Origin: Verrucomicrobiota bacterium
GTDB lineage: Bacteria; Verrucomicrobiota; Verrucomicrobiia; Limisphaerales; UBA1096
Assembly: GCA_015658765.1 (NCBI GenBank)
Contig: DQOE01000323.1
Location: 1 to 16,321, forward strand
DNA: 16,321 nt
Reading direction: 5' to 3'
Shown here: positions 1 to 15,637 of the stretch, one piece after another
How positions within the stretch are numbered: the first letter of the stretch is position 1
Layout: each line of letters opens with the position of its first letter
Translations under genes and position numbers: made by a program
The notes under the pieces: model-generated
The model's database searches: none
The model's input: only the letters and a program-made list of their open reading frames with translations
What the model was told of the DNA's origin: nothing

Positions 1-120
1 GTTGCGCTCCATGAATCGAATTCGCGAACGCTGCGAGCCGTCATCGGGCGCAACGGAACGGAACAACTGGGACAGGCGCCACCAGTCTATCCAAGACTTG
101 TTGCCCCTGGGGGAGGCCAT
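1..120 (-). CDS. Unrecognised protein, N-terminal 40 codons (partial)
   Basis: An open frame begins with ATG at 120, four bases after the coaC stop codon, and runs off the left edge of the window without a stop. The visible part begins MASPRGNKSWIDWWRLSQLF and is rich in Trp, Arg and Ser. It does not look like CoaB (no glycine-rich nucleotide-binding start), PriA or RpoZ, the genes that often follow gmk or coaC. Its position suggests the last visible member of the TPR-yicC-gmk-coaC operon. No good Shine-Dalgarno is seen; a GGAG lies about 19 bases upstream inside coaC. I do not recognise the family, and 40 codons are too few to exclude a chance open frame. Confidence 0.35.
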   Translation of the reverse strand, partial: MASPRGNKSWIDWWRLSQLFRSVAPDDGSQRSRIRFMERN

Positions 121-124
121 TTGA

Positions 125-1307: not shown

Positions 1308-2188
1308 TCGATATTCTGAACTTGTTCACGGATTTTTTCCAACTCGGTTTTCAGGGTGACCACCTCGCTGGAAATATTGGCGTCGTTCGCCTTGGAGCCG
1401 ATCGTGTTGATTTCCCGAAACATTTCCTGAGCCAGAAAATCGAGCTTGCGACCCACTGGCACATTGTCGGACAGGCATTCCTCCAGTTGGACAAAGTGGC
1501 TCCTCAGCCGGGTCAATTCCTCGGTGATGTCCGTGCGATCCGTGTAATAGACAACCTCCCTAAGCAGGCGCTCATCGTCCATGTCGGGCACGTCGACGTT
1601 GGCATTGTTCAATCGTTCGACCAGTCGCTCCCGGTGGTGTTTCAGCACGTTCGGGGCGAGCTTGGCCACCCGCTTGACGACGCGGCGCAGCTTGCACAGG
1701 CGCTTGGCCAAGTCCCGGGCAAGGTTGGCTCCCTCCTTCTCGCGCATCGCCAGCAACCCCTCGAGCGCTTGGCTAAGCGCACGCTTTACCGGCGCACGAA
1801 ATGCCCTGGCATCGAGCGTTGGCTCAGAGGTTTCCAGCACACCGGGCAGGCGCAGGAGGCTGTCCAGCGAAAGGTTATCAGGGATCTTCAGCGACTTGGC
1901 CAACTTGGTCACTTCCGAACGGTACACCTTGGCTTGGGCCTCGTTGATGGCAACGGCAGAAGCGCGGTCCACGCCGGAACGCTGCAAAGCCACCCTGCCG
2001 CTGACTCGGCCCCGGGAAACCGAGGCGAGGATCAGGTCGCGCAAGTCGGACTCGATGAACTCCATCTCCGACGGGACACCCAGCGACACCTCGGCCTGTT
2101 TGCGATTCACCGAGTTCAACTCGACCGTAATGCGCGTGCCTTTAGCCGTGCATTCACCGCGCCCGTAACCGGTCATTGATTTCATCAT
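1304..2188 (-). CDS. yicC: YicC-family endoribonuclease
   Basis: 294-aa YicC/YloC protein. The family is reported to have endoribonuclease activity and to influence small-RNA stability. The signature N-terminus MKSMTGYGRGE is present, and the C-terminal DUF1732-type block is clear: LREVVYYTDRTDITEEL (209-225) and KLDFLAQEMFREINTIGSKA (248-267). The middle (about 150-200) is Lys/Arg-rich and helical. Two adjacent ATG codons (2188 and 2185) could start it; the second gives the classical MKSMTGYGR start. It follows the TPR gene by 12 bases and ends in a GTGA overlap with gmk. Assignment to the family is secure; which RNAs it cuts cannot be read from the sequence. Confidence 0.95.
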   Translation of the reverse strand: MMKSMTGYGRGECTAKGTRITVELNSVNRKQAEVSLGVPSEMEFIESDLRDLILASVSRGRVSGRVALQRSGVDRASAVAINEAQAKVYRSEVTKLAKSLKIPDNLSLDSLLRLPGVLETSEPTLDARAFRAPVKRALSQALEGLLAMREKEGANLARDLAKRLCKLRRVVKRVAKLAPNVLKHHRERLVERLNNANVDVPDMDDERLLREVVYYTDRTDITEELTRLRSHFVQLEECLSDNVPVGRKLDFLAQEMFREINTIGSKANDANISSEVVTLKTELEKIREQVQNIE

Positions 2189-2200
2189 TCCAGCGCCGCC

Positions 2201-3577
2201 CTATCCAAGGCTGGCGTAATAGGCATCCACCCGGTCGGCGACATCGCGATAGCCGATGTCGCGCTCGTAAATGAGCTTGAACTGCTCGATCGATTCCTCC
2301 GTCCGATCCATCGAGTCGAGCACGCAGCCGAGTTGGTAGTGCAAATCCATTTTTTCGTCGTCCATGATTTCCTTCTTATCGAGCGCCTTTTGCAGGGTGC
2401 CCGCCGCCATGTCGTTCATGCCGCGCTTGGCAAAGCACTTGCCCATGTGCATCAACGACGGGATTTCCTTGTGGGGATTGGCCTGCGAGCGCTGGAAGGA
2501 CTGGATCGCCGGGGTGATTTCGCCGGCCTCGAATTGCAGCACACCGAGGTCGTATCGCAGCGACAAGTCGGAGGGGTACATGTCGGACAAGCGCTGGATC
2601 TGCTCCATCTCAAACGCATTGCGCTCGACTTCCAGTTCGCCGGCATCGCCTTGGCCGGCCTGTTCAATCCGCCAGTCGAACTGCAACAGTTTCGTGTCCA
2701 CGATAGCCCGATCCACGGCGGCATCGGAGCGCAGGTTGGTCTTGTTGAACCGCTCGTAGTAGCCGACTGACTTGTCAAAATTCTTCACGCGGCTGTGCAG
2801 TTCCGCCAGCGAGCGAATGAGCTTCAGGTTCTCCGGCTCGTCCACCAACCGCTGCTCGTACTCCTTGATAAGGTTCTCGGCTGTGGACTCCTGCTCGGAA
2901 CGCCGGTTCTCCTGCTCGAGCAACACCGCCTCTGCCTCGTCCTTCAGCACCGCGCGGTAGTCGGACTCACCGGAGGCGACCTTGTCGTAGCCGCCCTCGG
3001 ACAGGGTTCGGCTGGCCGTCAGGTTCTTGGACAACTGCAGCACCTCCTGGTCGCCGGGGTGCGCCTTGGCCAATGCCGTGCAGGTTTCCTCCGCCTTGGC
3101 CACGTCGCCGTTATTCACCAACGCCTGACAGTATCGCATGGTGTTGGCCTTGTCATCCGGGTGCTTCTGCATGACAAGATCCCAGGCGAACAGCGCCGTG
3201 CGCGGGAACCCGGCCGCAGTGGCGGCATCCGCCAAAAGCTTGTTGCCCATCACGCTGTATGGGTCGTCATTCAGGACCTGCTCGGCTACCTCGATCGCCT
3301 CAAGCGGATCCTTTTTCAACGCCAACTGGCCCTTCGGCAAAAGCGACGTCGAAGTCGTCTTGCCGAACATCTTGAAGAGGCCGCTCTTCTTGCCGGAACG
3401 CTTGAACTGGTTGAGCCGTAGGGCCTCGCGGCACTCGAAAAACCCCGGCTCACGCCGTAGCGCCTGCTCGAAGAGCTTGGTCGCGTAGTCGAGATTGTCC
3501 TTTCGCAGCGCGGTGATCCCCTTCTCAAAATACTCTCGAGCCTGAGGTTGTACCTCTTTTTTTGTCTTTTCCGGCAT
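2201..3577 (-). CDS. Tetratricopeptide repeat protein
   Basis: 458-aa protein built largely of TPR-like helical pairs. Recognisable units include residues 13-47 (AREYFEKGITALRKDNLDYA, then LFEQALRREPG), about 92-138, 142-175, 338-372 and 374-400, and a final unit around 411-440. A Lys/Gly-rich insert (58-75, SGKKSGLFKMFGKTT) interrupts the first repeats. A charged, probably coiled segment lies near 205-245. There is no signal peptide or membrane segment, so it is probably a cytoplasmic scaffold. It is the first gene of the minus-strand operon leading to yicC, gmk and coaC. It has one of the few convincing Shine-Dalgarno sequences in this window, GGAAGG nine bases before ATG. Partner proteins and precise role are unknown. 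Confidence 0.85.
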   Translation of the reverse strand: MPEKTKKEVQPQAREYFEKGITALRKDNLDYATKLFEQALRREPGFFECREALRLNQFKRSGKKSGLFKMFGKTTSTSLLPKGQLALKKDPLEAIEVAEQVLNDDPYSVMGNKLLADAATAAGFPRTALFAWDLVMQKHPDDKANTMRYCQALVNNGDVAKAEETCTALAKAHPGDQEVLQLSKNLTASRTLSEGGYDKVASGESDYRAVLKDEAEAVLLEQENRRSEQESTAENLIKEYEQRLVDEPENLKLIRSLAELHSRVKNFDKSVGYYERFNKTNLRSDAAVDRAIVDTKLLQFDWRIEQAGQGDAGELEVERNAFEMEQIQRLSDMYPSDLSLRYDLGVLQFEAGEITPAIQSFQRSQANPHKEIPSLMHMGKCFAKRGMNDMAAGTLQKALDKKEIMDDEKMDLHYQLGCVLDSMDRTEESIEQFKLIYERDIGYRDVADRVDAYYASLG

Positions 3578-3595
3578 TCCCTAAAACCTTCCCGA

Positions 3596-3624
3596 ATCGT
3601 ACCGACAAACCCCAATTGATGCAA
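3596..3624 (-). promoter_or_regulatory. Possible sigma-70 promoter of the TPR-yicC-gmk-coaC operon
   Basis: On the minus strand, TTGCAT (3624-3619) and TACGAT (3601-3596) are separated by 17 bases. Transcription would begin near 3589, leaving a short leader that holds the GGAAGG ribosome site before ATG 3577. The -35 matches the consensus only at TTG, so this is a weak call supported by spacing and position. Confidence 0.33.
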
Positions 3625-3649
3625 ACAACCTCCCGCCCGCGCTTCGCGG

Positions 3650-3678
3650 TTGCCCTGTTTGGGAGGGTCGTGTACAAC
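3650..3678 (+). promoter_or_regulatory. Possible sigma-70 promoter of grpE-dnaJ-rsmE
   Basis: TTGCCC (3650-3655) and TACAAC (3673-3678) are separated by 17 bases, upstream of the grpE ATG at 3707. The -10 matches four of six consensus positions. No CIRCE element (TTAGCACTC-N9-GAGTGCTAA) and no clear heat-shock sigma-32 box is seen between the divergent genes. Confidence 0.33.
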
Positions 3679-3706
3679 ATTTGCCGCCGGTTATCGGCAG
3701 ACATCC

Positions 3707-4390
3707 ATGAGCAGGGAAGCCAAAGAGGAAAACCAAGACACCACCCAAATCGAGATCAACGACTCGGAGGAGAAAGACAATAACGCCCCGTCCACACCGG
3801 ATCAGCAAAGCCAAGCGCCCGACCCGGCGGACGAGGAACCTGAGCCCGCTGAAACCGAACCTGAAGAGGAGGAGGAACTCCCCCCGCCGACCCCGGAGGA
3901 AGTCAAGGAGCTTCGACAACAGGCGGCCAAGGCGGAGGAGTTTTATGACCGGCTTCAGCGCCAGGTCGCCGAGGCCGACAATCTGCGCAAGCGCTTGGCC
4001 AAGGAGAAGCAGGATGCCGTCCGCTACGCCAACGAGTCCCTCATCGAGCAACTGCTCCCCACGATGGACAGTTTCGAGATGGCCATGTCAGCCGTCCGGA
4101 ACGCGGATGACAGCACAATCGACTCGCTGAAGACCGGCATCGAGATGGTTCACGCCCAACTCAAGCGAACGCTCGAGGAGGTCGGGCTTGTTGAAATCGA
4201 CGCCACCGGCCAAACATTCGACCCTTCCCAACACGAAGCCGTGTCCCGCAAGAAAACCGACGAGGCCGACGAGGGCACCGTGATCGAGCAAACCCGCAAA
4301 GGCTACCGGCTGAAGGATCGCCTCCTGCGGGCTGCCTCCGTTGTCGTGGCCGCCCCCTCCGGGGAGGCCGAGGAAGCCAACGAGCAATAA
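3707..4390 (+). CDS. grpE: Nucleotide exchange factor GrpE
   Basis: Nucleotide exchange factor of the DnaK (Hsp70) chaperone; releases ADP from DnaK. The 227-aa product has a long acidic, Pro/Glu-rich disordered N-terminus (1-62), then the coiled-coil dimerisation helix (63-110, including [20 protein letters not shown]) and the C-terminal beta-domain with [10 protein letters not shown] (171-180) and [17 protein letters not shown] (199-215). The frame is open for 19 codons upstream, to an in-frame ATG at 3650. I choose ATG 3707 because the extra residues are not family-like and would overlap the proposed promoter. No Shine-Dalgarno precedes it. dnaJ follows after two bases. dnaK is not in the window. 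Confidence 0.95.
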
Positions 4391-4392
4391 GC

Positions 4393-5532
4393 ATGGCCAA
4401 GCGCGATTACTACGAGGTGCTGGGCATCAGCAAGGGTGCCTCCGCTGATGAAATCAAAAAAGCCTACCGCAAGCTCGCCGTCAAATATCATCCTGACAAG
4501 AATCCCGACAACAAGGAGGCCGAGGAGAAATTCAAGGAAATCGGTGAAGCCTACGAGGCGCTGAGCGATCCCGAGAAAAAATCGGCCTACGACCAGTTTG
4601 GCCACGCCGCGTTCGGCGCGGGTTCCCGGGCCAGTCGCGGCGGCGGCGGGTTTCACGATCCGTTCGACATTTTCCGGGAGGTGTTCAGCGGCGGCGGCGG
4701 CGGCGGCGTTTTTGAGGATTTGTTCGGCGGCGGCGGCCAACGCAGTTCCTCCGGCCCGTCGCGCGGCTCCGATCTGCGCTACGACATGGAGTTGACATTC
4801 GAGGAAGCCGTCCACGGTTGCGAAAAGGAAATCCGCCTCAGCAAACTCGACTCCTGTGATTCCTGCAAAGGCAGCGGTGCAGCGGACGGCGGACGGCGCT
4901 CGACCTGCGGCACCTGCAACGGCCGCGGGCAAGTCGTCCAGTCGCAGGGCTTCTTCAGCGTGGCGCAGACTTGTCCCCGATGCCACGGCAGCGGTGCCTC
5001 CATCGACAAGCCATGCCCCAAGTGCAACGGCGAGGGGCGCCGCGACAAGTCCAGCAAAGTCACCATCCGCGTCCCGGCCGGCGTCGATACCGGCGCGCGG
5101 TTGCGCTCAACCGGCAACGGCGAGGCCGGCATTCACGGCGGCAAACCGGGCGACCTGTACGTCGTGCTGCACGTGAAGGAGCATGAGATTTTCGAGCGCG
5201 ACGGCGACGACCTGCAGTGCGAAGTGCCCGTTAGCTTTGTGCAGTCAACGCTTGGCTCGGAGATCCAGGTGCCCACCCTCAACGGGAGCGCCCGAATCAA
5301 TGTGCCTCCCGGAACCCAGTCCGGAACCATCCTGCGGCTTCGGGGTAAAGGTGTCAAAAACGTGCAGGGCTACGGGCACGGCGACCTGCACGTGCGGGTC
5401 ATCGTCGAGGTGCCGACCCGCCTGAACGCGGAGCAGAAGGCCAAGCTAAGCGAGTTCGGCGAACTCTGCGACGACCGCGTCAACCCCATGCGCGGCTCCT
5501 TCTTCGAGAAGACCAGGAAGTTTTTCACCTAG
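4393..5532 (+). CDS. dnaJ: Chaperone DnaJ (Hsp40, type I)
   Basis: J-domain co-chaperone that stimulates DnaK ATPase and delivers substrates. Domains in order over 379 aa: J domain (4-68) with HPD at 33-35; Gly/Phe-rich linker (71-116) with Gly runs encoded by GGC repeats; zinc domain with four CXXCXGXG motifs (CDSCKGSG 155, CGTCNGRG 172, CPRCHGSG 194, CPKCNGEG 208); and C-terminal substrate-binding beta domains from about 220, ending [10 protein letters not shown]. This is a complete type I DnaJ. It begins two bases after the grpE stop, so translation is probably coupled, and rsmE follows after 14 bases. Confidence 0.97.
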
Positions 5533-5546
5533 TCATCCCCAGTTTC

Positions 5547-6296
5547 ATGCACCGATTTTTCATCCCCCCGGAGGAGTGCCATAACAACCCGCTTCGCCTC
5601 TCCCCGGCGGAATCCAAGCACGCTCGCTCGGTGCTGCGTCTGCGCGAGGGGGATCGTGTTGTCGTGCTGAACGGCGCTGGAAAGGAACTGCTCTGCCAGG
5701 CGGCGGAGGCTCGCAACGACTCGACAACACTGGAGATCATCCAGGAAAACAGCATCCCCCCCCTGCCCTTCGAGATCACGCTTTACCAAGCCGTGGCCAA
5801 GGGCAAGGCGATGGATTTTATTGTGCAAAAAGCAACCGAACTCGGCGCGCACCGGGTCGTGCCGGTGCTGTCCGAGCGCTCCGTGCCGGGTTGGGACGAC
5901 GCCAAGACAGCGGCCAAGGTCGAGAAATGGCGCAGCATCTGCATCGAGTCGATCAAGCAATGCGGCTCCGCATGGCTGCCCAGGCTTGAGCTGCCAATGA
6001 CGCCCAAAGCAGCCCTGGATGATGCGCGCCAATCCGATCTCTCGCTGATCGCCACGCTGCAACCCGACGCAAAACACCCCCGCGAACAAATCGACGCCCA
6101 CACCGCCGAGCACGGCCAAGCGCCGGGCAAACTGGCGATCTGGGTCGGGCCGGAAGGCGACTACACGCCGGCGGAAATCAACACCATCCGCACAGGTGCC
6201 CAGCCGATCACGCTTGGCCCGCTTGTGCTCCGCAGCGAGACCGCCGCCATCTACTGCCTCGCCGTGCTCAACTACGAACTGCAGGCACGCCAATAA
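5547..6296 (+). CDS. rsmE: 16S rRNA (uracil-1498-N3)-methyltransferase RsmE
   Basis: SPOUT-class methyltransferase that makes m3U1498 in 16S rRNA using S-adenosylmethionine. The 249-aa product has the N-terminal PUA-like domain (MHRFFIPPEE, then HARSVLRLREGDRVVVLNG at 25-43). The trefoil-knot domain follows, with YQAVAKGKAMDFIVQKATEL (80-99), the SAM loop WVGPEGDYTPAE (199-210) and LGPLVLRSETAAIYCLAVLN (223-242), all family hallmarks. Placement just downstream of dnaJ is common in bacteria. The ATG at 5547 has no Shine-Dalgarno. The gene ends nine bases from the convergent sugar isomerase gene. Confidence 0.95.
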   Translation: MHRFFIPPEECHNNPLRLSPAESKHARSVLRLREGDRVVVLNGAGKELLCQAAEARNDSTTLEIIQENSIPPLPFEITLYQAVAKGKAMDFIVQKATELGAHRVVPVLSERSVPGWDDAKTAAKVEKWRSICIESIKQCGSAWLPRLELPMTPKAALDDARQSDLSLIATLQPDAKHPREQIDAHTAEHGQAPGKLAIWVGPEGDYTPAEINTIRTGAQPITLGPLVLRSETAAIYCLAVLNYELQARQ

Positions 6297-6305
6297 GCGC
6301 TTGGT

Positions 6306-7118
6306 TTACGCGGAGGCTTCCCTCATGTAGCGCAGACTCTCGCGGGCGATCGTCTCGGGGCCTTCCTCGAAGTCAAACACCTCCACCGACACAAAGCCGC
6401 CGTAGCCGACTTCCTTCAGCGCACCAAAGATCGGCTTAAAATCGACATCGCCAAAACCCGGCCCCTTGAGGTTGGCGTCGTTGGCGTGGAAGTAAGCGAA
6501 ATTCGGATGCGAGTCGCGGATGATATCCGGTATCGGCTTGGGGTCGGAACACATCGCCTTCACGTCGAGGATAATCTTGAAGGCGTCACTGTCGAACTGC
6601 CGAATGAACTCGATGCCCTTTGCAGCCGTGTTCACGAAATCCGTCTCGGACGGAGCCAACGGCTCGAAGCAAATCGTCACCCCCTTGTCTTCCGCCAACT
6701 TGACCGACGGAACAAACGTCTCCCTCGCTAACTCCCACGCCTGCTCAAAGCTGACTCCCGGCAGCAGATTGCGCTGCTTGGGCGAGCCGACGACAATCGC
6801 CTCGCCGCCGAGGTCGGCGCAAAACTTCACCAACTCACAAAAGTAATCCGACGTTTTGCTGCGAACCGCCGGGTCGGTGTGCGTCATGTACATGCCCTCG
6901 GTATTGATGAGCACCCAGTGTACCGCCGAGATTCCGATGCCGCTGTCGGCGGCGACGTCGCGAATCCGATACCGCTCCGCCACCGGCACATCGGTCACAT
7001 ACTGCGCCAGCGTGAACGGCGCAATCTCAATGGCATCGTAACCCGTGTCGGCGACAAACTTGATGGAGTCGTCAATCGCCCAACCCTCGAAAACCTCATT
7101 ACAAATGGCAAACTTCAT
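6306..7118 (-). CDS. Sugar phosphate isomerase/epimerase (xylose isomerase-like TIM barrel)
   Basis: 270-aa AP-endonuclease-2 / xylose-isomerase-like TIM barrel. Likely divalent-metal ligands at the ends of barrel strands are Glu152 (CFEPLAPSETDF), Asp185 (IILDVKAM), His211 (YFHANDAN) and Glu246 (VSVEVFDF), matching the Glu-Asp-His-Glu layout of the D-tagatose 3-epimerase / hydroxypyruvate isomerase group. The N-terminus MKFAICNEVFEGW is family-like and supports ATG 7118. The protein is probably cytosolic. Exact sugar substrate is not readable. It is monocistronic, convergent with rsmE, and its upstream side opens into the AT-rich gap. No Shine-Dalgarno is seen. Confidence 0.85.
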   Translation of the reverse strand: MKFAICNEVFEGWAIDDSIKFVADTGYDAIEIAPFTLAQYVTDVPVAERYRIRDVAADSGIGISAVHWVLINTEGMYMTHTDPAVRSKTSDYFCELVKFCADLGGEAIVVGSPKQRNLLPGVSFEQAWELARETFVPSVKLAEDKGVTICFEPLAPSETDFVNTAAKGIEFIRQFDSDAFKIILDVKAMCSDPKPIPDIIRDSHPNFAYFHANDANLKGPGFGDVDFKPIFGALKEVGYGGFVSVEVFDFEEGPETIARESLRYMREASA

Positions 7119-7138
7119 TTTAGTGATGCGTTACAAGG

Positions 7139-7215
7139 GACGCAGATGAACACAACCAGAGTAACTTTTCAGTCTAATTCCAAATGTTTTTGAGAATGAG
7201 ACAAAGATGAACGCG
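7139..7215. repeat. Imperfect direct repeat, GACNNAGATGAACNCN
   Basis: GACGCAGATGAACACA (7139-7154) recurs as GACAAAGATGAACGCG (7200-7215), starting 61 bases later and identical at 12 of 16 positions. Both lie in the non-coding AT-rich gap between the sugar isomerase and the GxxExxY remnant. Function unknown; it may be a remnant of an imported segment. Confidence 0.5.
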
Positions 7216-7250
7216 GATCGCGGGATTTCCGGATGAAAATTAGATTGTGA

Positions 7251-7288
7251 GAATTTGCCTCCAATTACTTCCTGTAATTGTCAAATTC
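7251..7288. repeat. Strong AT-rich stem-loop at the 3' end of the GxxExxY remnant
   Basis: Two nested inverted repeats form one hairpin. The inner stem is CAATTAC (7262-7268) with GTAATTG (7274-7280) around the 5-base loop TTCCT. The outer stem is GAATTTG (7251-7257) with CAAATTC (7282-7288). A small asymmetric bulge (CCTC against T) separates the two, giving 14 base pairs in all. The inner stem covers the stop of the minus-strand pseudogene frame. It may be the old gene's transcription end structure, but no long T run follows it on either strand. Confidence 0.6.
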
Positions 7289-7632
7289 CTTTCGCTTGAT
7301 TTCTGGTTTTGTGCCGAGATTTAGCAACAGGCTAACTTCGTACTCCGTTGCTTTCATATAATTCAACAACCGGGCCTCATCCTTGTCAATCAACTGCTTG
7401 CTCGATTTCAATTTCACGAGAACAAGATTCTCCACGACAACATCCGCAAAGTATTCCCCAACAAGAATTCCTCGTATCGAACATCAACCCGTTCCTGTTG
7501 TTTGACGGCTAATTGCGTTTTTCCAAGTTCATGAACCAAAGCATTTTCATAAACCTTCTCCAAGAACCCAAAACCAAGCGTGTTGTAAACCACGTAGAAG
7601 GCTTTGATCACTTTTTCTGTTAATTCCTGATG
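7265..7632 (-). pseudogene. GxxExxY family protein, frameshifted
   Basis: The minus-strand frame from about 7632 reads HQELTEKVIKAF (no ATG; an in-frame TAA lies at 7641-7639), then VVYNTLGFGFLEKVYENALV, which carries the GxxExxY signature GFLEKVY. Near 7460, in YEEFLLGNT, the frame is lost. Reading the next frame recovers the rest of the family: VGEYFADVVVENLVLVKLKS, then a segment with LLNYMKAT, then SLLLNLGTKPEIKRKEFDNY, ending at TAA 7267-7265. A single-base loss near 7460 explains the break. The original start codon also seems missing; the first usable start is GTG 7611. The family is a small, PD-(D/E)XK-like protein of uncertain role, often found in AT-rich accessory DNA. A sequencing error at the shift cannot be excluded, but the missing start supports true decay. 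Confidence 0.82.
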
Positions 7633-7681
7633 TTCAAATTATATAATAACACAATGAGTATCAACAAGAAGTAAAATCCAT

Positions 7682-8530
7682 TTAATCCTGAAAACCAGCG
7701 TTCAACTGTGTCCCATTGCGTACCAACTCGCAAAAACGTTTCAGCAGCCGAGTCGCGCGGTCGCTGGCTTGGCGGGATTGTTCGAGGACTTCTCCGTGAC
7801 TGATCGCTGACTTGGCCAAGCCGGCGGCGGCGTTAGTGATGCATGACAAGCCGGAGACCCCGAGGCCAAGCTGACGGGCGACGATCACTTCCGGCACGGT
7901 GCTCATGGCGATGGCGTCGGCGCCCAGCGTTGCGAAGGCTCGAATCTCTGCCGGCGTCTCGTAGCTTGGCCCGGACACCGCCGCAAAAACACCGCTCTTC
8001 AACTCGATCCCGCAGTCGGCGGCGGCTTGGCCAAGCGCTTGGCCAAGCGACTCGGAGTAAGCGGCAGACATGTCCACAAAGCCCGGCAGTCCCGCCGCCG
8101 CTTCGCCGCGCAGCGGATTGGCCCCCATCAGATTGATGTGGTCGATGATGCGCATGAAGTCGCCGACTGCCAAGTCTGTCGCAATGCCACCGGCGGCGTT
8201 GGTCAGTAACACCTGCTCGACACCGAACGCGGCCATGACCCGGATCGGATATGTCACTTGAGCCATCGAGTGGCCCTCGTAGTAGTGCAACCGGCCGGCC
8301 TGCACCACGACGTCGGCGCCGCCCAGTCGCCCAATGATAAACTGACCGGTGTGACCCTCGACGCTGGATGCGGCGCATCCGGGGAGATCGGCAAAATCAA
8401 CGGTCGCATCGACCTCGATCGACTTCGCCACTTGGCCAAAGGCGCTGCCCAGCACGATACCGAGAATCGGGCGCAACGATGTTGCCGCATTCAGAACTTT
8501 GGCGGCGGCTTGAGGGTTCAACTGCACCAA
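7682..8530 (-). CDS. punA: Purine nucleoside phosphorylase (trimeric, PunA type)
   Basis: Phosphorolyses inosine and guanosine (and deoxy forms) to base and (deoxy)ribose-1-phosphate in purine salvage. The 282-aa product shows the low-molecular-mass PNP motifs: ILGIVLGSAFG (22-32), the phosphate/ribose loop QAGRLHYYEGH (77-87), LLTNAAGG (108-115), the base-binding GPSYETPAEIR (187-197) with Glu191, GADAIAMSTVPEVI (203-216) with Met209, and CITNAAAG (230-237) with Asn233, which favours 6-oxopurines. The start is uncertain: no ATG is in frame before the upstream stop at 8579-8581. TTG 8530 or GTG 8527 are the options, and neither has a Shine-Dalgarno. The gene contains four copies of the TTGGCCAA word, two as a perfect tandem. 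Confidence 0.92.
   Translation of the reverse strand: MVQLNPQAAAKVLNAATSLRPILGIVLGSAFGQVAKSIEVDATVDFADLPGCAASSVEGHTGQFIIGRLGGADVVVQAGRLHYYEGHSMAQVTYPIRVMAAFGVEQVLLTNAAGGIATDLAVGDFMRIIDHINLMGANPLRGEAAAGLPGFVDMSAAYSESLGQALGQAAADCGIELKSGVFAAVSGPSYETPAEIRAFATLGADAIAMSTVPEVIVARQLGLGVSGLSCITNAAAGLAKSAISHGEVLEQSRQASDRATRLLKRFCELVRNGTQLNAGFQD
8025..8048. repeat. Perfect tandem of two GCTTGGCCAAGC palindromes
   Basis: GCTTGGCCAAGC occurs at 8025-8036 and again, directly abutting, at 8037-8048. Each unit is a perfect 12-bp palindrome. They lie inside the purine nucleoside phosphorylase gene and encode the duplicated residues LGQALGQA. This is the densest instance of the word scattered through the window. 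Confidence 0.9.
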
Positions 8531-8622
8531 GCCGGTATGGCGCTTGGGCGGGTGGAACTCAAGCCAAGAGCGTCCGGATCACGCTTGAGCCGGTGATAAT
8601 GCAGATTGATTGGCGAAATCTG

Positions 8623-8652
8623 TTGACGAGCCTTGGGGCCTTTCGCTAGGTT
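8623..8652 (+). promoter_or_regulatory. Probable promoter of tRNA-Asn
   Basis: TTGACG (8623-8628, five of six consensus bases) and TAGGTT (8647-8652) are 18 bases apart. Transcription would start near 8659, about ten bases before the mature tRNA. The -35 is strong and the -10 weak. The position just upstream of a stable RNA supports the call. Confidence 0.5.
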
Positions 8653-8668
8653 CTCCCGCCCTCAGAGT

Positions 8669-8743
8669 TCCTGAGTAGCTCAATGGTAGAGCGGTTGGCT
8701 GTTAACCAATAGGTTCTAGGTTCAAGTCCTAGCTCAGGAGCCA
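8669..8743 (+). tRNA. tRNA-Asn (anticodon GTT)
   Basis: The full cloverleaf is visible. Acceptor TCCTGAG pairs with CTCAGGA, followed by discriminator G and an encoded CCA (8741-8743). The D arm GCTC/GAGC encloses AATGGTA. The anticodon stem GTTGG/CCAAT holds the loop CTGTTAA with anticodon GTT. The variable loop is AGGTT. The T arm CTAGG/CCTAG holds the loop TTCAAGT. The gene is single and convergent with the large carboxykinase gene, whose stop codon lies 9 bases beyond the CCA. Confidence 0.97.
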
Positions 8744-8752
8744 TCTTCCCCC

Positions 8753-11700
8753 CTAATAACTCTCGGTTGTTCCTGATTGTTTAAGCGAACAATCCAGGCC
8801 AATGGTGCCGGCGAGAGCGACGAGGCAGTCGCTGCTTCTGGCGAACGCGAGTTCGTCTTCCACCTTGGCTAGGCGCTTGCCCAAGCCAAGTCGGCCGGCC
8901 TCTTCGCGGTGGGTTTCCTTCTCGAGGAATGCCTTCATGTAGGCCACTTGGTTTTCGAGATAAGCCACATCGCGCGTCTGCTTGGACTTGATCCGATCGT
9001 GATACCAACTTTGCCCGCGCACTTTTTCCTGGTCGAACAGGCTGCGTATCTCCGGGTCGGCGGCGGTTTTACCCTCGAACTGCCCATGCGCCATGATGTG
9101 CAGCAGCGCCCGTAACGGCGGGATGGCATCATCGATGGAGCCATCCTCAAAATAGTGCCCGGCGATTCGCTGCTGAGTCTCGACGATGTTGTTGACACCA
9201 TCCACAAAATCGTCGATCCCCTGCAACTCGGGTTTGAGCATGTCCTCGGGCAGGACGGAATCCGGGTTGGTGAAAATTCGACCGAAAAAATCCAGCACGA
9301 ACCGGCTCGTAATCCTATAGCCAAGTCGGCCGGCCAGAACGGTCCGACCGGCGTGATCGAAATCATCCACCTTCTCCAAGTACCCTTCCCGGATCAGATA
9401 ATCCGCCCGGCGTTCACCGGAGGACATGCGAGCCCAAAGTTCCGGAATCAACAGGCTGATGTCGTGGTTCACGCGGTACTTTGGGCCGATGTAACCTGCG
9501 GCGGAGGTGAAGCAGTCGTCGCTCGTCAGCATGTAACTGACCAGCGCGTTGTTCAGGTCGACCACCGGCAACAGCGCATTGAACGGCCCCTTGGTCAGTG
9601 CGCCCTCGGAGCCGGCCCCGGTGGTTGACGGGGATTTGCCGGTGAGCGAGCTGACGAAGTCCATGAACAGTTCCGGCAGTTCCTGATAATGGATCGGCCC
9701 GTAAACGGCGAGGGCTCGGATGCCGGCCTTGGCGTCGGGCGGGTTGTTACGGCGTCCGGCCAGTACGGCATCGACGGGGTTCAGCACCGCTTGGCCAAGC
9801 GGCACGCGACGGTACAGGCGCGTGCCGATGTTTGCCAGGTAACGCCCTCTCGCGTCCTCCACGTCAGGCCGGTTTTGGAGATAGCGCGGGTTCTTCGTCG
9901 GCTTACCGTCCACGATTCGCGGCAACGCCGATGACGCCATGAACTCGCGAGGGTTGGAGTCGTCGAGAAAGCCGCGAAAGACTTCCTGAAGGTTCGCGGT
10001 GTACTGCCCGAATTGAAGGGCATCATCGACCTCATCCCGAGCCTCCTGCCTTGAGATCGGGTGGTAATTGGAAGCGAAAAGGTTTTGGCGGCAGAAGTCC
10101 GCCTCGGCATTTTTGTCGTACCCCCGCAGCACCGCGTCATCGGGCCGCTGAAAGAAACGGTACTCACAGTTGGAGGCAAACTTGAGCGAGGGGCGATGTT
10201 CATCATTCCTGAGGTGCGGCAGAGCCCCCGACGGCAACACGGTGCTGGCGGAAATGTCATCCTCACGCTGCAACTTGACCGAGGGGATGAAATCTTTTCG
10301 CAGCGTGAACGTCCGCCAAAGCCCGTCCCCGGTGAAGCCGACGCGCAAATATTGAGCCACCAGTTTTTGTTGCTTGTACTTGAGTTCCTTTCCCGGTTGG
10401 CCGTTGACCGCGTCCACCGAAAAGAGCCTCCCCCAATCGCCCTTCCATTCCGGCTGGTAGAACCGCTTGACCGTGAAAACGAGATCTCTGACGTGCATGG
10501 GGATTCCGCCAAGCCACTCGTTGTACTCGTCCGTGTATGCGCGACTGGGAGTCAGCAACTTGATCACCGAGCCGAGCGATCGGCGCTCATCCAGGATACT
10601 GCGGCCGCGTTTCACTTCCGGCGGATTCTTAAACCGGCCCGAGAAGCTCCGCTGGATGATTTCCTCAGCCGATGCCATGTCCTCTTGAAAATCTGCGACA
10701 AAAACCGGCCCGGCCAAAATGGCGTCTCGGATGGACTTGGAGATTTCCGACTTGCCGCCACCGGACACCGTGCACGGCTTGTGGCAAAAGACCCCCTCGG
10801 CGGCATTGCCCACGAGACGCCAATGCCCTCCCACAGAACGGCGCACCATGGAAACCTTGTAGCCCGACGGCAGCACATACGTGATGCCCGGCGACAAGCG
10901 GATACGCTGGGCGATGCCCTCCCGCGACCAGGAAATGCTCTGTTCCCTCAGCCGCACGATGGAATCCTCCGGGATGTATTGGATGTCGGGGAATCGCTTG
11001 TCGATGGCATACCCTTCCGGCTGAAAACACATGAGATCGCCGCACTCCCGGATCATCTCCGCAAAGGTATGGTTCACTTCCTTGACGAAATCGCTCAGGT
11101 GAAACTCTTCGCCCAGGTCATATCGGGGATAGGCGATCACGCCACCGGCGTGTTCCTCCTCTGCGTTGCCCAGCAGATTGGCGGAGAAACTGATCTGGGT
11201 TTTCACCTCTTTTTTACAGTAGCCAAAATAGTTGTCGGCGATCAGCGTGACCATGACGCCGGAAGCGTCCCGGCAAGCCACCTTGAACCCGCCGCCGTCG
11301 TTGTAGCGCTCTTCACCGGACTCCCAGCACATGCCGTCGCGTTTTTGCCGCTCGGTGGCCTCGGAAACATGCGGCAAACCCAGTTCCTTTTTGCCCAACA
11401 AAACCAGGTGGGGCGCAAGCACCACGCATCCGGTGTGCCCGGTCCAATGCGCCGGATCGAGCGCTGCGTCGTTCTCGCTCAAGTACGGGTCGCCGGCGTT
11501 GCCGAAAATAGACTCCACGAAATCCAAATTGGAAACCAAGCTGCCCGGCGCGAAAAACCGGGTCTCAAGCGAACGCTCCGCACAAACGCCCCGGACTCCG
11601 GGCGTGACCACGGGGCGCAGCAACAGCGACACAAACAACCTCGCCCTCTCCTCCTGCGAACTCGTGAAGGGGATTTCCATCACGCCTTCCGGCGGGGAGA

Positions 11701-12238
11701 GCGCTTGGCCAAGCAGCGCGGCAAACACCGCCTTGGGAACCTGCTTTTTGTCGTGGGGAATCGGCAACCCACCTTCCACGATATGAAACACCCCCTTTGT
11801 GGTTCGCCGATCGCTCCTTGGATTGTGCAACACCCCCTGTTCAATCCGGTACGAGTCAATATGCTCCGATTTGTACGAATCCTTGTCGGGCGGGAGCGAC
11901 AGGGTACGGGCCAGGCCGTGATGCTCCAGTTGGAGGGCGTTGGTCGGAAGCTTGGGGACATCGCAACCGGCAAGGTAACGGTTCAGAAAATTCTGGATCC
12001 GCGCATCCACCGGGCAGTGGTACTCTGCCAGTAAACGGTTCTTCTCCTGCAAATTGGCCAGGAGATGCTTGCTTGTCTTGAGAAGGGCAAACTCACTCTC
12101 CTTGCCAACGATCGGCTGGCCTCGAAACCACAACTTGGCGTTGATCACCTCGGCCAAGCGCAGCCTGTCCTCGTCCGAGTTCAGGTTCACGCCGAAGCCA
12201 AGGCGTCTCTTCAGTTCCTTTGCGTCATCCAAATTCAT
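8753..12238 (-). CDS. PPi-type phosphoenolpyruvate carboxykinase
   Basis: This 1161-aa protein matches, from memory, the diphosphate-dependent PEP carboxykinases known from Propionibacterium and Entamoeba. These interconvert oxaloacetate and PPi with PEP, CO2 and phosphate at the glycolysis/TCA junction, and are unrelated in length to the ATP and GTP enzymes (about 530-620 aa). Signature blocks, numbered from ATG 12238, are HTGCVVLAPHL (about 268-278), DNYFGYCKKEVKTQISFSAN (335-354), the kinase-like loop TVSGGGKSEISKS (490-502), a SLGSVIKLLTP block (555-565), NPPDAKAGIRALAVYGPIHY (832-851) and GKSPSTTGAGSEGALTKGPF (867-886). The C-terminus is helical and charged. The frame is open upstream to TTG 12271. 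I prefer ATG 12238 because a good promoter sits across the extra codons, giving a nearly leaderless mRNA. The gene stands alone between tRNA-Asn and slyX. Confidence 0.85.
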   Translation of the reverse strand: MNLDDAKELKRRLGFGVNLNSDEDRLRLAEVINAKLWFRGQPIVGKESEFALLKTSKHLLANLQEKNRLLAEYHCPVDARIQNFLNRYLAGCDVPKLPTNALQLEHHGLARTLSLPPDKDSYKSEHIDSYRIEQGVLHNPRSDRRTTKGVFHIVEGGLPIPHDKKQVPKAVFAALLGQALSPPEGVMEIPFTSSQEERARLFVSLLLRPVVTPGVRGVCAERSLETRFFAPGSLVSNLDFVESIFGNAGDPYLSENDAALDPAHWTGHTGCVVLAPHLVLLGKKELGLPHVSEATERQKRDGMCWESGEERYNDGGGFKVACRDASGVMVTLIADNYFGYCKKEVKTQISFSANLLGNAEEEHAGGVIAYPRYDLGEEFHLSDFVKEVNHTFAEMIRECGDLMCFQPEGYAIDKRFPDIQYIPEDSIVRLREQSISWSREGIAQRIRLSPGITYVLPSGYKVSMVRRSVGGHWRLVGNAAEGVFCHKPCTVSGGGKSEISKSIRDAILAGPVFVADFQEDMASAEEIIQRSFSGRFKNPPEVKRGRSILDERRSLGSVIKLLTPSRAYTDEYNEWLGGIPMHVRDLVFTVKRFYQPEWKGDWGRLFSVDAVNGQPGKELKYKQQKLVAQYLRVGFTGDGLWRTFTLRKDFIPSVKLQREDDISASTVLPSGALPHLRNDEHRPSLKFASNCEYRFFQRPDDAVLRGYDKNAEADFCRQNLFASNYHPISRQEARDEVDDALQFGQYTANLQEVFRGFLDDSNPREFMASSALPRIVDGKPTKNPRYLQNRPDVEDARGRYLANIGTRLYRRVPLGQAVLNPVDAVLAGRRNNPPDAKAGIRALAVYGPIHYQELPELFMDFVSSLTGKSPSTTGAGSEGALTKGPFNALLPVVDLNNALVSYMLTSDDCFTSAAGYIGPKYRVNHDISLLIPELWARMSSGERRADYLIREGYLEKVDDFDHAGRTVLAGRLGYRITSRFVLDFFGRIFTNPDSVLPEDMLKPELQGIDDFVDGVNNIVETQQRIAGHYFEDGSIDDAIPPLRALLHIMAHGQFEGKTAADPEIRSLFDQEKVRGQSWYHDRIKSKQTRDVAYLENQVAYMKAFLEKETHREEAGRLGLGKRLAKVEDELAFARSSDCLVALAGTIGLDCSLKQSGTTESY
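9787..9802. repeat. 16-bp perfect palindrome CCGCTTGGCCAAGCGG
   Basis: This is the longest perfect version of the recurring palindrome in the window. It lies inside the PPi-PEPCK gene, where the minus strand reads Pro-Leu-Gly-Gln-Ala. It belongs to the dispersed TTGGCCAA set reported in the findings. Confidence 0.9.
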
Positions 12239-12251
12239 TTTCAAAAAAACG

Positions 12252-12279
12252 ATTATCGTATCACGCGGCAAAAAGTCAG
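12252..12279 (-). promoter_or_regulatory. Probable promoter of the PPi-PEPCK gene
   Basis: On the minus strand, CTGACT (12279-12274, four of six) and GATAAT (12257-12252, five of six) are 16 bases apart. The start point would fall near 12245, leaving only about seven untranslated bases before ATG 12238. This supports the ATG over the upstream TTG 12271 as the translation start. Confidence 0.45.
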
Positions 12280-12295
12280 GGAAAATCAGGTCGCG

Positions 12296-12323
12296 TTGAA
12301 ATTGGCCCGGCCTCCGCTATCGA
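12296..12323 (+). promoter_or_regulatory. Weak candidate promoter of slyX
   Basis: TTGAAA (12296-12301, five of six) and TATCGA (12318-12323, three of six) are 16 bases apart and lie about 30 bases before the slyX ATG. The -10 is poor, so this is only a candidate. It would share the 116-bp divergent region with the PPi-PEPCK promoter. Confidence 0.25.
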
Positions 12324-12354
12324 TCCCCTGCCCCGCCTGCGGTAGCCTGCACCC

Positions 12355-12561
12355 ATGTCGCATGAAAAACGGCTGGTAAACATCGAGTCCGACCTGACGC
12401 ATTTGGAACAGCTTGTGGCGTCCCTGAACCATACCATCACCGAGCACGACAAAATGATTCAGCAACTCCAGACCCAGGTGAACCGGGTTGCCACCGGCTT
12501 GGAGACAAAAGAGATGGACTCCATCAAGGGCAATGTCACAAAGCCGCCCCACTATCAGTGA
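12355..12561 (+). CDS. slyX: SlyX family protein
   Basis: 68-aa acidic coiled-coil protein. Heptad-like spacing of hydrophobic residues runs from about 6 to 52 (RLVNIESDLTHLEQLVASLN, then a Gln/Val-rich stretch), and the tail ends in PPHYQ, the typical SlyX C-terminus. The family has no established biochemical role. Length and tail fit well. ATG 12355 has no Shine-Dalgarno. Its last seven bases overlap the end of the convergent PfkB kinase gene, and its start is divergent from PPi-PEPCK. Short coiled coils are easily over-called, but the PPHY tail makes SlyX the best reading. Confidence 0.8.
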   Translation: MSHEKRLVNIESDLTHLEQLVASLNHTITEHDKMIQQLQTQVNRVATGLETKEMDSIKGNVTKPPHYQ

Positions 12562-13577
12562 GCGCAAACCAAGGGACGAATCTCCTCCAAGTTCGCCGTT
12601 CCCGTTGTGCCTAATTGGTGAACCACCACCGAGGCGGCAGCCATTGCAAATCTCATCGCCTCGACAACCTCCGCGCCCGCTGCCAAGGCCATGGCCAGGT
12701 TTGCCATCACGGCATCCCCGGCACCGACGATGTCGATCTCACCCCGCAGAGGCAGACACGGCACATGCTCCGGCGCCTTGCCCGGCTTGGCCCCGGCGAT
12801 GCCCTCTTCGCTGAGGCTCACAAACACCGGCTGGCCCCGGTCGGTGGCCAAGCGCCCAATCGCCGCACATAAATCGTCCAACGGCAAGCCAGCCGTCTCG
12901 CCGGTCAGCACGGCAAACTCCTCCCGATTCATTTTCAGGCCAACGGACGGAAAGTGACCCAGCCCCCGACGACTGTCGGCTAGGATGAGCAGATCGGGGT
13001 TGTCGCGGCGGATTTGGCCAAGCGCATCGAGCACGCCCCCGGCGAGCACCCCGGTGTCAGCCTCGTCCACCTGCTCGAGCAGCACCATCGCGTCCACCCG
13101 CTTGGCCAAGGCGTTGAGCGACTCGACAGTTCGCTCCTGCACCGACGGCGGCGTGCGGGCCCAGTTCTTGAAATCGAGCCGGTTCAGTTCCCTCGGCGAC
13201 TGCCCGGACTCGATCACCAGCGGCTTGGTGTAGGAAAAAGTCCTGCGCTCGGGCGTCTGAAAAAAATGGCTCAAGTCAACGCAGCCCACTTGGCCAAGCG
13301 AGCGCATCAACTCGTACCCCTCACCGTCCTCGCCGGCGAAGCCCACCGGGAAAACCGTTCCCACGCCAAGCGCCGACAGATTATTCAGAATGGTTCCACA
13401 ACCACCGGGCTGCGAACGAACGTTGGCCACGTTCAAAACCTCCAACCCGGTCTCAATGGAAGTTTCCGCCAGCGCGGGGTCGATCTCGAGATACCGATCC
13501 AGACAAAAATCGCCGACCAACGCCACGCGAAGACCGGAAAACCGGTCGGCGATTTCACTAAAACGCTCCTCTTTCAC
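12555..13577 (-). CDS. PfkB-family sugar kinase, RfaE/HldE kinase-like
   Basis: 340-aa ribokinase-superfamily enzyme that phosphorylates a sugar or sugar phosphate with ATP. Visible landmarks are VALVGDFCLDRYLEIDP (18-34), the substrate-side PGGCGTILNNLSALG (57-71), LADSRRGLGHF (199-209), KMNREEFAVLTG (215-226) and the ATP/anion-hole motif DIVGAGDAVMANLAMALAAG (282-301) with catalytic Asp288. The DFCLDRY start and the REELN-like spacing resemble the kinase half of HldE (heptose-7-phosphate kinase), but no adenylyltransferase domain follows. It starts at GTG 13577 in a GTGA overlap with the DHS-like gene, so translation is probably coupled. Third gene of the HAD / DHS-like / kinase operon. The true sugar is unknown. 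Confidence 0.83.
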   Translation of the reverse strand: MKEERFSEIADRFSGLRVALVGDFCLDRYLEIDPALAETSIETGLEVLNVANVRSQPGGCGTILNNLSALGVGTVFPVGFAGEDGEGYELMRSLGQVGCVDLSHFFQTPERRTFSYTKPLVIESGQSPRELNRLDFKNWARTPPSVQERTVESLNALAKRVDAMVLLEQVDEADTGVLAGGVLDALGQIRRDNPDLLILADSRRGLGHFPSVGLKMNREEFAVLTGETAGLPLDDLCAAIGRLATDRGQPVFVSLSEEGIAGAKPGKAPEHVPCLPLRGEIDIVGAGDAVMANLAMALAAGAEVVEAMRFAMAAASVVVHQLGTTGTANLEEIRPLVCAH

Positions 13578-14689
13578 GATGGGTTCGCGTCATCCAGGGC
13601 ACGGGATAAATGCTGGACGAAGGCCAGGTTATCGCACTGCAAGTAATGCATCGAGCCACCCATTCGGGCGTACGTTTTGCAGAACCGCAGATAATAGGCA
13701 GCGCTGGTGACAGGCGGCTCGCCCTGCGTCCAGTCCCAGTTGCCGCCATCCTGCAAATCGACGACGTACATCGAGTGGTTTTTCACAATCTCCCGCCCTT
13801 CCTGCAGGCGAATGTGGTTCACACAACTCAACGCCTTCTCGAACACTTGCGGCCCCATAATGGCCGAGCCGACCGACAACAGCACACCGCCGTCAAGCTG
13901 ATCGAGTGTCCCGGCGAATGTTTGAAAATCGACATGCGCCGCCCGGCCTATTGCCGCGCCGTTGAACATCGGGTGGTTTGAAATAATGTCGTAACCGATG
14001 CCCGGATGCACCGTCAACGGCATCCCGTGGCGGTAGGCGGAAGCCACAACCGAAGCCTGTTTCCAGCGATGCTCGAGGTCGCACCGTCCCTCCGGCGCGG
14101 AGCCGTTACGCATGGCATGGAGCAACTCCGCCCGGGCCGCAGCCAACTCGTGCGCCGGTTCCGCCGCGATGAGCGAAACCAACTCATCCGCCGCCGGCAG
14201 ATCAGCGCCGTCCCCAGCGATAAAGCGGCCAAGCGCCTCACCATAACCCAGCCCCTCGACCCCGCCGGCGAGCAGCGCCAAGTGAATGTAGCGCCCCGTT
14301 TCCTCCCAGGTACCGAACGTGCCGGTGGCGACGTTCGAGCGAACGCACTCGGTCGAGCGGCCAAGCCAGGCGTACTCCCAGTCGTGAATTGTCCCGGCAC
14401 CGTTGGTGGCCAGATGCGACAGCCAACCGTTGGCGATCAAGTTGTCGAGGATCAGCGCGGCGCCGTTTTTGATGAGGTGCGCCCCGTAAATCATCATGAC
14501 AGCCTTGCCGTTGGCCCGGGCTTCGCGGATGCGCCCGGCGCAGTCGTCCACTTGGCTCATCAGCGCATCGCCGATCGCCGCCGGCTCGGCATCGAGCGGC
14601 ACAAGGACTTCCTCCACCGTGCTCAGGCTGTTGCGCTTGGCCAAGGGCAGCGGCTTGATTTTTTGCAGATCTATCTTGGTGCCAATCAT
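13574..14689 (-). CDS. Deoxyhypusine synthase-like protein
   Basis: 371-aa protein starting [14 protein letters not shown]. Motifs recall the deoxyhypusine synthase fold: MMIYGAHLIKNGA (65-77), LATNGAGTIHDWEYAWLGRS (93-112), GTFGTWEETGRY (123-134), HPGIGYDIISNHP (228-240) and SVGSAIMGPQVFEKAL (272-287). Bacteria lack eIF5A, so a true deoxyhypusine reaction is unlikely, and I do not see the catalytic Lys context of eukaryotic DHS near the C-terminus (NWDWTQGEPPVTSAAYYLRF at 317-336). An NAD-dependent role on another amine or sugar is possible. The start at 14689 sits in an ATGA overlap with the upstream HAD gene; a longer frame reaching 14782 would overlap that gene and is Arg/Cys-rich, so I reject it. 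It ends in a GTGA overlap with the PfkB kinase gene. Confidence 0.65.
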   Translation of the reverse strand: MIGTKIDLQKIKPLPLAKRNSLSTVEEVLVPLDAEPAAIGDALMSQVDDCAGRIREARANGKAVMMIYGAHLIKNGAALILDNLIANGWLSHLATNGAGTIHDWEYAWLGRSTECVRSNVATGTFGTWEETGRYIHLALLAGGVEGLGYGEALGRFIAGDGADLPAADELVSLIAAEPAHELAAARAELLHAMRNGSAPEGRCDLEHRWKQASVVASAYRHGMPLTVHPGIGYDIISNHPMFNGAAIGRAAHVDFQTFAGTLDQLDGGVLLSVGSAIMGPQVFEKALSCVNHIRLQEGREIVKNHSMYVVDLQDGGNWDWTQGEPPVTSAAYYLRFCKTYARMGGSMHYLQCDNLAFVQHLSRALDDANPS

Positions 14690-15552: not shown

Positions 15553-15618
15553 AAATATGCGCCTGGCCAATGTATCGGGCCACTTGCGGGCAGTGAAGCA
15601 GAAACTCCCCCGCGTGGC

Positions 15619-15637
15619 CAAGCGGTGAAAACGCTTG
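15619..15637. promoter_or_regulatory. Inverted repeat CAAGCG-N7-CGCTTG between HAD gene and htpG
   Basis: CAAGCG (15619-15624) and CGCTTG (15632-15637) form a 6-bp inverted repeat around GTGAAAA, 54 bases before the htpG ATG. It lies in the 138-bp divergent spacer. It could be an operator or an RNA hairpin. It is not CIRCE. The half sites equal the arms of the dispersed GCTTGGCCAAGC word, here split apart. Confidence 0.35.

Follow-up and report, generated by a model that had tools for sequence, protein, structure and literature searches.

The 8-bp word TTGGCCAA is repeated 14 times in a 16,321-nt stretch of Verrucomicrobiota DNA (contig DQOE01000323.1, hereafter the window), and these copies belong to a single palindrome of 14 bp, CGCTTGGCCAAGCG, that is highly iterated throughout one genus and has TTGGCCAA as its core. 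An earlier note, made from the letters of the window alone, had listed 14 start positions, estimated well under one copy by chance and drawn a parallel with HIP1, a highly iterated palindrome (HIP) of cyanobacteria. Every coordinate proved exact and no further copy was detected in the window; the expectation was 0.41 copies, and 200 dinucleotide shuffles never gave as many as 14. The word also recurred at corresponding sites in relatives, much more frequently than other 8-mers did. We tentatively propose that CGCTTGGCCAAGCG serves for the recognition of self-DNA in transformation or recombination.

The word is dense in a single genus

The genome to which the window belongs (G000; 2.24 Mb, 433 contigs, 71% complete) contained 1816 copies of TTGGCCAA (0.81/kb) versus 65 copies of the reversed word used as a control. 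In a 123.6 kb sample of this genome, consisting of the window and 20 contigs, TTGGCCAA was the most over-represented palindromic 8-mer, with 96 copies versus 8.6 expected by an order-3 Markov model, so the outcome that the earlier note had named as refuting its reading, counts near a Markov expectation, was not seen. The word exceeded the reversed-word control in all 20 other genomes of the same genus (G001–G020; a family-level search gave the same 21 genomes). Seventeen of these 20 carried 1086–4314 copies, and the density was approximately 0.5–1.1/kb in 17 of the 21 genus members. Three AT-rich genomes were low (G001, 238; G005, 265; G019, 192 copies; controls 50, 54, and 43), and at 0.09–0.11/kb they were barely above the phylum background.

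Outside the genus, 19 genomes from other families of the order had 29–350 copies with controls of 34–278, that is, 0.2–1.7 times the control, which was exceeded in 10 of them and by 1.7-fold at most. Among 387 genomes drawn from the phylum, none outside the genus had more than 335 copies, and the highest density there was about 0.076/kb (G375) versus 0.81/kb in G000. In this draw the reversed word (0–309 copies) is a rough yardstick, and word-to-control ratios like that of G000 were seen in a few genomes (G233, 181/7; G083, 119/0; G118, 59/1) at no more than a tenth of its density. Thus, among the genomes sampled, the dense word is confined to one genus, and the picture goes beyond the earlier note in that a 14-bp element is dense in that genus only and scarce in its AT-rich clade. 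The genus is apparently marine, as isolate names including FRAM, ETNP, and ALOHA suggest, and the nearest named records to the window are Verrucomicrobiota metagenome-assembled genomes, one of them labelled Pedosphaera sp. Among the open-licence literature matches listed, none described genomic repetition of TTGGCCAA or any HIP from Verrucomicrobiota.

A second, weaker word, TTGCCCTT(G), was observed in the G000 sample (e.g., L082:4182 and L085:1215; 20 places listed), with 10 copies per strand versus 1.7 expected; it possibly represents Lys-Gly-Lys codons.

The preference is for DNA letters and extends to 14 bp

The copies of the window are read as Leu-Ala-Lys (LAK) seven times, as Leu-Gly-Gln (LGQ) six times and as Phe-Gly-Gln (FGQ) once, in agreement with the seven LAK and seven Leu/Phe-Gly-Gln copies counted before. 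Of 78 LAK tripeptides in the G000 sample, 44 were spelled by the word, as were 27 of 53 LGQ tripeptides, where codon usage predicts 7.3 and 1.6, respectively. The tripeptides themselves exceeded the expectation from amino-acid composition 4.85-fold (LAK) and 4.77-fold (LGQ), and the reversed tripeptides were not in excess (KAL, 0.93; QGL, 0.45). A similar excess, 3.7- to 6.6-fold, was found in G008, G013, and G015, and a weaker one, 1.7- to 2.7-fold, in G020 and G019. The word is therefore a DNA-level feature and not a codon-level preference, as the earlier note had favoured. Its statement that all copies lie in genes held for the window (14 of 14) only: greedily chosen open reading frames (ORFs) covered 93.4% of the 123.6 kb sample and contained 87 of the 96 copies, so intergenic DNA is not avoided.

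The bases flanking TTGGCCAA were also strongly biased, with C at −1 (82% in G000; 79% in a pool of five genomes), G at −2 (59% and 60%) and C at −3 (52% and 56%), all mirrored on the other side. The leading flank bases were identical in the LAK-frame (245), LGQ-frame (188), third-frame (44) and intergenic (27) copies (those crossing an ORF edge or lying less than 10 bases from a contig end were left out), the preference at −2 and −3 being weaker in the LAK frame. Because the flank bases are common to all three frames and to the intergenic copies, the repeat unit was taken to be the palindrome CGCTTGGCCAAGCG. It was matched exactly at two of the 14 window copies (8039 and 9791). In contrast, the 16-mer GCGCTTGGCCAAGCGC, to which the flanks had been said to extend, was perfect at none of them, only the copies at 8039 and 14637 being one base short of it. 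The four near or half copies named earlier were all real: 1766–1779 is one mismatch and 2424–2437 two mismatches from the 14-mer, while 12845–12855 and 14225–14236 are half copies. In 732.5 kb from four genomes, 95, 156, 170, and 282 sites were found at 0, 1, 2, and 3 mismatches from CGCTTGGCCAAGCG, versus means of 0, 0.1, 4.3, and 45.9 for 30 shuffled palindromes, that is, 703 sites versus about 50. A hairpin reading of the flanks was rejected, since the palindromic covariation had a z of 2.7 (weak) at position 2 and of −2.1 at position 4, with no clear signal elsewhere.

Local word density followed the GC content of 10-kb segments in G015:C3 (r 0.71). The end of G015:C3 at about 270–318 kb (L155, L156) has low GC (~0.41) and one word in 48 kb. 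The idea that this end is a mobile island was not supported by the five ORFs scanned there, since these encode low-GC proteins of surface type, whose domains are MBG, Ig-like, TIG, or lectin-like.

Words persist in distant relatives and were probably eroded in an AT-rich clade

The persistence of the word was followed in eight loci homologous to the window (L001–L008). At 78–82% nucleotide identity, the persistence of words was roughly threefold that of other 8-mers: L004 kept 9 of 14, L005 9 of 10, L006 9 of 14, L007 6 of 14, and L008 2 of 6, where the background for any 8-mer was 22%, 22%, 19%, 16%, and 17%, respectively. Pooled over L004–L007, 33 of 52 words were kept versus approximately 10 expected. 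The nearer relatives kept 9 of 14 (L001; background 60%), 7 of 10 (L002; 63%) and 8 of 12 (L003; 41%), so that L001 and L002 together (16 of 24) showed little excess. Some of the 72 directed locus pairs were at or below the background (L001 to L002, 5/11 vs. 47%; L004 to L008, 1/7 vs. 20%; L002 to L008, 1/8 vs. 15%). When only positions with an unchanged amino acid were considered in L004–L007, codons inside the word were retained more frequently than identical codons outside it (GGC, 22/25 vs. 409/672; CAA, 23/27 vs. 79/141; TTG, 19/24 vs. 143/330; GCC, 21/22 vs. 481/700), with no clear excess in L001 and L002 (GGC, 9/12 vs. 261/325). Words are thus hardly safer than their neighbours in the short term and far safer in the long term, which suggests, on small numbers, that they are lost and regained at the same places.

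The genomes G001, G019, and G005 form the AT-rich clade (GC 40–42%; median amino-acid identity of G001 to G019 83% in 55 pairs, to G005 86% in four pairs). G020 (51% GC, 0.34/kb) stands apart, and G009 groups with the main clade (86% to G017, six pairs), median identities being unreliable for distant pairs of such partial samples. Of the words remaining in G001, three of five lay at a word site of G000 and three of nine at one of G015, and of those in G019 three of six and three of eight did so, over a background of 4–5%. Such residual words are as expected of relics, although the lack of coincidence between the words of G020 and G019 (0/14 and 0/4) speaks against it. Of the one-step differences at main-clade words, 3/5 (G000 to G001) and 3/7 (G015 to G001; the two sets overlap) were C-to-T or G-to-A changes. 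The word was therefore probably present in the common ancestor of the two clades and worn down in the AT-rich one. No replacement word was conspicuous in the initial samples from G001, G005, and G019, and TTGGCCAA was still the top palindrome in those of G005 and G019.

Ortholog-like genes of G015 carried 0.81 words/kb (60 in 52 genes) versus 0.38/kb in the rest (109 in 195 genes), which includes orthologs missed by the partial samples. Within GC classes the gap narrowed (0.40 vs. 0.35, 0.79 vs. 0.55, and 1.16 vs. 0.84), and below 50% GC, where only three ortholog-like genes lie, it was reversed.

A possible self-DNA word

We suggest that CGCTTGGCCAAGCG may be read as a mark of self-DNA, most likely during natural transformation or else in the subsequent recombination. 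Chromosomal integration would favour fragments bearing the word, and the word would thereby spread and be restored by molecular drive; the twofold symmetry of the palindrome suggests a dimeric reader. The genus-restricted density, the flanks common to all frames, the mismatch ladder, the long-range persistence, the enrichment in ortholog-like genes and a word-rich phage contig were counted in support, and the small excess in L001 and L002 fits loss and regain. A graded pattern of near misses has been described for uptake words and also for other frequent words (PMC1939737), thus the ladder is not specific to uptake words.

Competence genes were sought in the 21 genus genomes with the Pfam models Competence, DNA_processg_A and Mg_chelatase_C, which we take to represent ComEC, DprA, and ComM; they were found in 9, 12, and 13 genomes, respectively. 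The five least dense genomes (G001, G019, G005, G020, and G009) gave none of 15 possible matches and the other sixteen gave 34 of 48; the sixth least dense, G002, had ComM only. Word density was higher in genomes with DprA (p 0.017) or with either ComEC or DprA (p 0.013), marginally so with ComEC alone (p 0.06), and it correlated with the three-gene score over all 21 genomes (rho 0.61, p 0.003; rounded genome sizes were used in the density statistics). As a control, the presence of an unrelated gene of the window, encoding a 1172-aa protein, showed no density trend (p 0.80).

In a viral collection, at least 120 stretches contained the 14-mer, with one site in each of the 80 listed. The phage contig L215 (IMGVR_UViG_3300032087_002358, 1–13670) carried eight TTGGCCAA copies in 13.7 kb versus 0.28 expected, four of them as CTTGGCCAAG, and its genes include terminase, DnaB-like helicase, helicase loader, and exonuclease matches, making it a candidate phage of the genus. 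It was the richest of the longer loci, and the only clearly TTGGCCAA-rich one over 5 kb, among at least 120 that were each picked for the 14-mer; one of its copies is thus due to selection. Temperate phages of Pasteurellaceae likewise collect uptake words (PMC6776037). A 20-base paired word had no match in the viral collection. Another viral locus, L206, matched the 14-mer loosely (with up to three mismatches) at 45 sites in 14.9 kb and contained a single exact TTGGCCAA; these sites probably constitute a repeat of its own.

Several observations speak against a self-DNA word. Known uptake words are non-palindromic, while CGCTTGGCCAAGCG is a palindrome, and they favour non-coding DNA (PMC1939737), whereas here the density was 0.69/kb in coding and 0.59/kb in intergenic DNA. 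The spacing is clumped, with 13 of 516 gaps in five genomes shorter than 20 bp versus 3.9 expected at uniform density. The words of G020 and G019 did not coincide (0/14 and 0/4). As for the competence genes, the cut between low and high density was set after the data had been seen, three of the five low genomes belong to the one AT-rich clade, and detection of the genes also tracked genome completeness (p 0.02–0.05). In the 15 genomes with an estimated GC of at least 0.53 (G001, G005, G019, G020, G003, and G010 being left out; the GC of nine genomes came from 5–17 kb only, and the value of 0.33 for G003 is unreliable), the correlation with the three-gene score was not significant (rho 0.34, p 0.21). 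Two ComM matches, in G004 and G010, were broken by a partial frame or an internal stop, and the latter, with its internal stop, was the only match in G010 (0.99/kb). None of the three genes was detected in G000 (0.81/kb, 71% complete) or in G009, which retained 0.50/kb. The association is confounded by GC, ancestry, and incompleteness; it is a lead and not a proof.

Alternative explanations

The main rival to the self-DNA word is a binding site of a dimeric chromosomal protein, such as a nucleoid organiser or a segregation, replication, or repair factor, which would need about one site per kb and whose sites would be kept by selection. A 14-bp consensus with twofold symmetry is what a homodimer would read, the density is close to one per kb, words persist at synonymous positions in distant relatives, and pairs spaced by exactly 12 bp recur (8 of 516 gaps pooled from five genomes; six of the eight are TTGGCCAAGCGCTTGGCCAA). 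However, the clumped, GC-dependent spacing (G015:C3) and the 48 kb with one site speak against a strict spacing need, and we consider this explanation possible but doubtful.

The word might also have no function, if a context-dependent mutation or repair bias drove the sequence towards it. The graded ladder, the dependence of density on local GC and the apparent loss and regain would all agree with such a bias. Yet it would need to read about 14 symmetric bases and override the choice of amino acids, as seen from the ~4.8-fold excess of the tripeptides, and G009 and G020 are poorer in words at a moderate GC of 0.56 and 0.51, which makes this explanation unlikely.

In the sense of Elhai (2015), a HIP would owe its origin and maintenance to an orphan DNA methyltransferase, here specific for GGCC or TGGCCA, together with methylation-directed repair. 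The word has a GGCC core, which the earlier note had suggested as a methylation target, and G4>A and G4>C led the one-step changes, with 34 each out of 146 (from non-independent pairs). Near misses gathered at the outer positions, as Elhai reports for HIP1 (PMC4390886): CTGGCCAA was 3.5- to 4.9-fold over-represented in G000, G008, G013, and G015, but only 0.9- to 1.7-fold in G020, G019, G001, and G005. According to the same paper, all cyanobacteria that have a highly overrepresented word also have a putative fitting methyltransferase, and the GGCC enzyme of Anabaena belongs to the D12 family, PF02086 (PMC4390886); Synechocystis also has a GGCC enzyme (PMC6560206). Four Pfam families were searched in the 21 incomplete genus genomes (2–4 Mb), other families and phosphorothioation not being covered. 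PF00145 was found in G008 only, at a 3-kb locus without the word (L101), PF01555 and PF02086 in none, and PF02384 weakly in three (~20 bits, frames of 283–313 aa). The PF02384 matches passed the curated cut-off narrowly, and only when neighbouring pieces were included; they may, at a guess, be another kind of methyltransferase. The same searches in 14 named control genomes detected PF00145 in 10, PF01555 in 11, PF02086 in four, and PF02384 in 13. As these four families yielded a single gene, in G008, and three weak matches, the methylation target is poorly supported, and an origin of the word by methylation seems improbable.

A codon-pair or peptide preference for LAK and LGQ, the frames of most coding copies (245 and 188 of 477), was dropped as next to impossible, since the codon-usage test contradicts it and third-frame and intergenic copies have the same flanks.

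Copies and neighbouring genes in the window

All sites are given without strand. The LAK-frame copies lie in a yicC-like gene (1704..1711 and 1896..1903), a TPR protein gene (3066..3073), grpE (3995..4002), a phosphorylase-superfamily gene called PNP in the earlier note (7812..7819), a PfkB kinase gene (13102..13109, identical in all eight homologous loci, L001–L008) and a gene previously named DHS-like, whose best Pfam match, ArgZ-like, is below the cut-off (14637..14644). The LGQ-frame copies comprise a pair 12 bp apart, the first at 8027..8034 and the second, at 8039, within a perfect CGCTTGGCCAAGCG (8036..8049); two in the gene of the 1172-aa protein, one at 9791 within a perfect 14-bp palindrome (9788..9801) and one at 11705..11712; and two in the PfkB kinase gene (13014..13021 and 13290..13297). 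The FGQ copy (8432..8439) is in the phosphorylase-superfamily gene. The two words of the pair (8027–8046) are exactly 12 bp apart, with GCGC common to both. Three near copies of the 14-mer correspond to TTGGCCAA in relatives: 1766..1779 (TTGGCTAA core, one mismatch) in L003, 8874..8887 (TTGCCCAA core) in L003, L005, L006, and L007, and 15611..15624 (GTGGCCAA core, one mismatch) in L001, L004, L005, and L006. The 1172-aa protein (8753–12271; PPi-PEPCK in the earlier note) had no Pfam match at E 0.001 and 265 related stretches in genome contigs, with several phyla among the titles of the 80 listed.

Comparison with known systems

The likeness to HIP1 noted earlier holds in that TTGGCCAA is palindromic, strongly over-represented genome-wide and preferred at the DNA level; it does not extend to a word-modifying methyltransferase, as far as the four families searched in 21 incomplete genomes go. 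HIP1 lies mostly in coding DNA. HIP1 (GCGATCGC) and the alternate HIPs of cyanobacteria are likewise short palindromes extendable on both sides, which reach ~500–2500 copies per Mb in many related genomes and are low in some lineages (PMC4390886). TTGGCCAA is a different word from HIP1, unrelated in sequence and in host phylum; its core has 50% GC, while the replacement HIPs of Elhai have at least 75%, and the methyltransferase families searched are nearly absent, whereas a putative enzyme is reported for each word-rich cyanobacterium (PMC4390886). The function of HIPs is still open, one published proposal tying them to DNA methyltransferases (Elhai, 2015). The present word combines a HIP1-like density in another phylum, in genomes where the searched families are almost absent, with a dense-to-sparse series within one genus, which separates the word from methylation. 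Comparing these relatives lets the ideas of uptake, recombination, and a chromosomal protein be tested, and TTGGCCAA/CGCTTGGCCAAGCG can serve as a sequence tag for binning members of the genus and finding their phages.

Chi of Escherichia coli is read on one strand, unlike the palindrome CGCTTGGCCAAGCG, which carries no strand information. Chi is also a frequent chromosomal word (1008 copies in 4.64 Mb; PMC1939737), although it has about a quarter of the density of TTGGCCAA and is not palindromic. Closer in density are the uptake signal sequence (USS) of Pasteurellaceae, with saturation near 750 per Mb (PMC6776037), and the DNA uptake sequence (DUS) of Neisseriaceae, with ~1900 per genome (PMC3630211). 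Like these, CGCTTGGCCAAGCG is a dense, lineage-specific short word, more frequent in shared genes, present in phages and accompanied by graded near misses. Unlike these oriented words, it has a palindromic core with mirrored flanks, spans 14 bp and is not enriched in intergenic DNA. TTGGCCAA leans to the 5′ part of genes (60 copies in the first tenth vs. 30 in the last; n = 412, p 0.007), while the words of Pasteurellaceae lean to gene termini (PMC2346458). More boldly and rather speculatively, natural transformation in this genus might be driven by a 14-bp palindrome that marks self-DNA; this would be a DUS-like system of new architecture, with a dimeric reader and words mostly in genes, reshaping the proteome, and would imply a possible role in uptake or recombination for some HIPs, among them HIP1.

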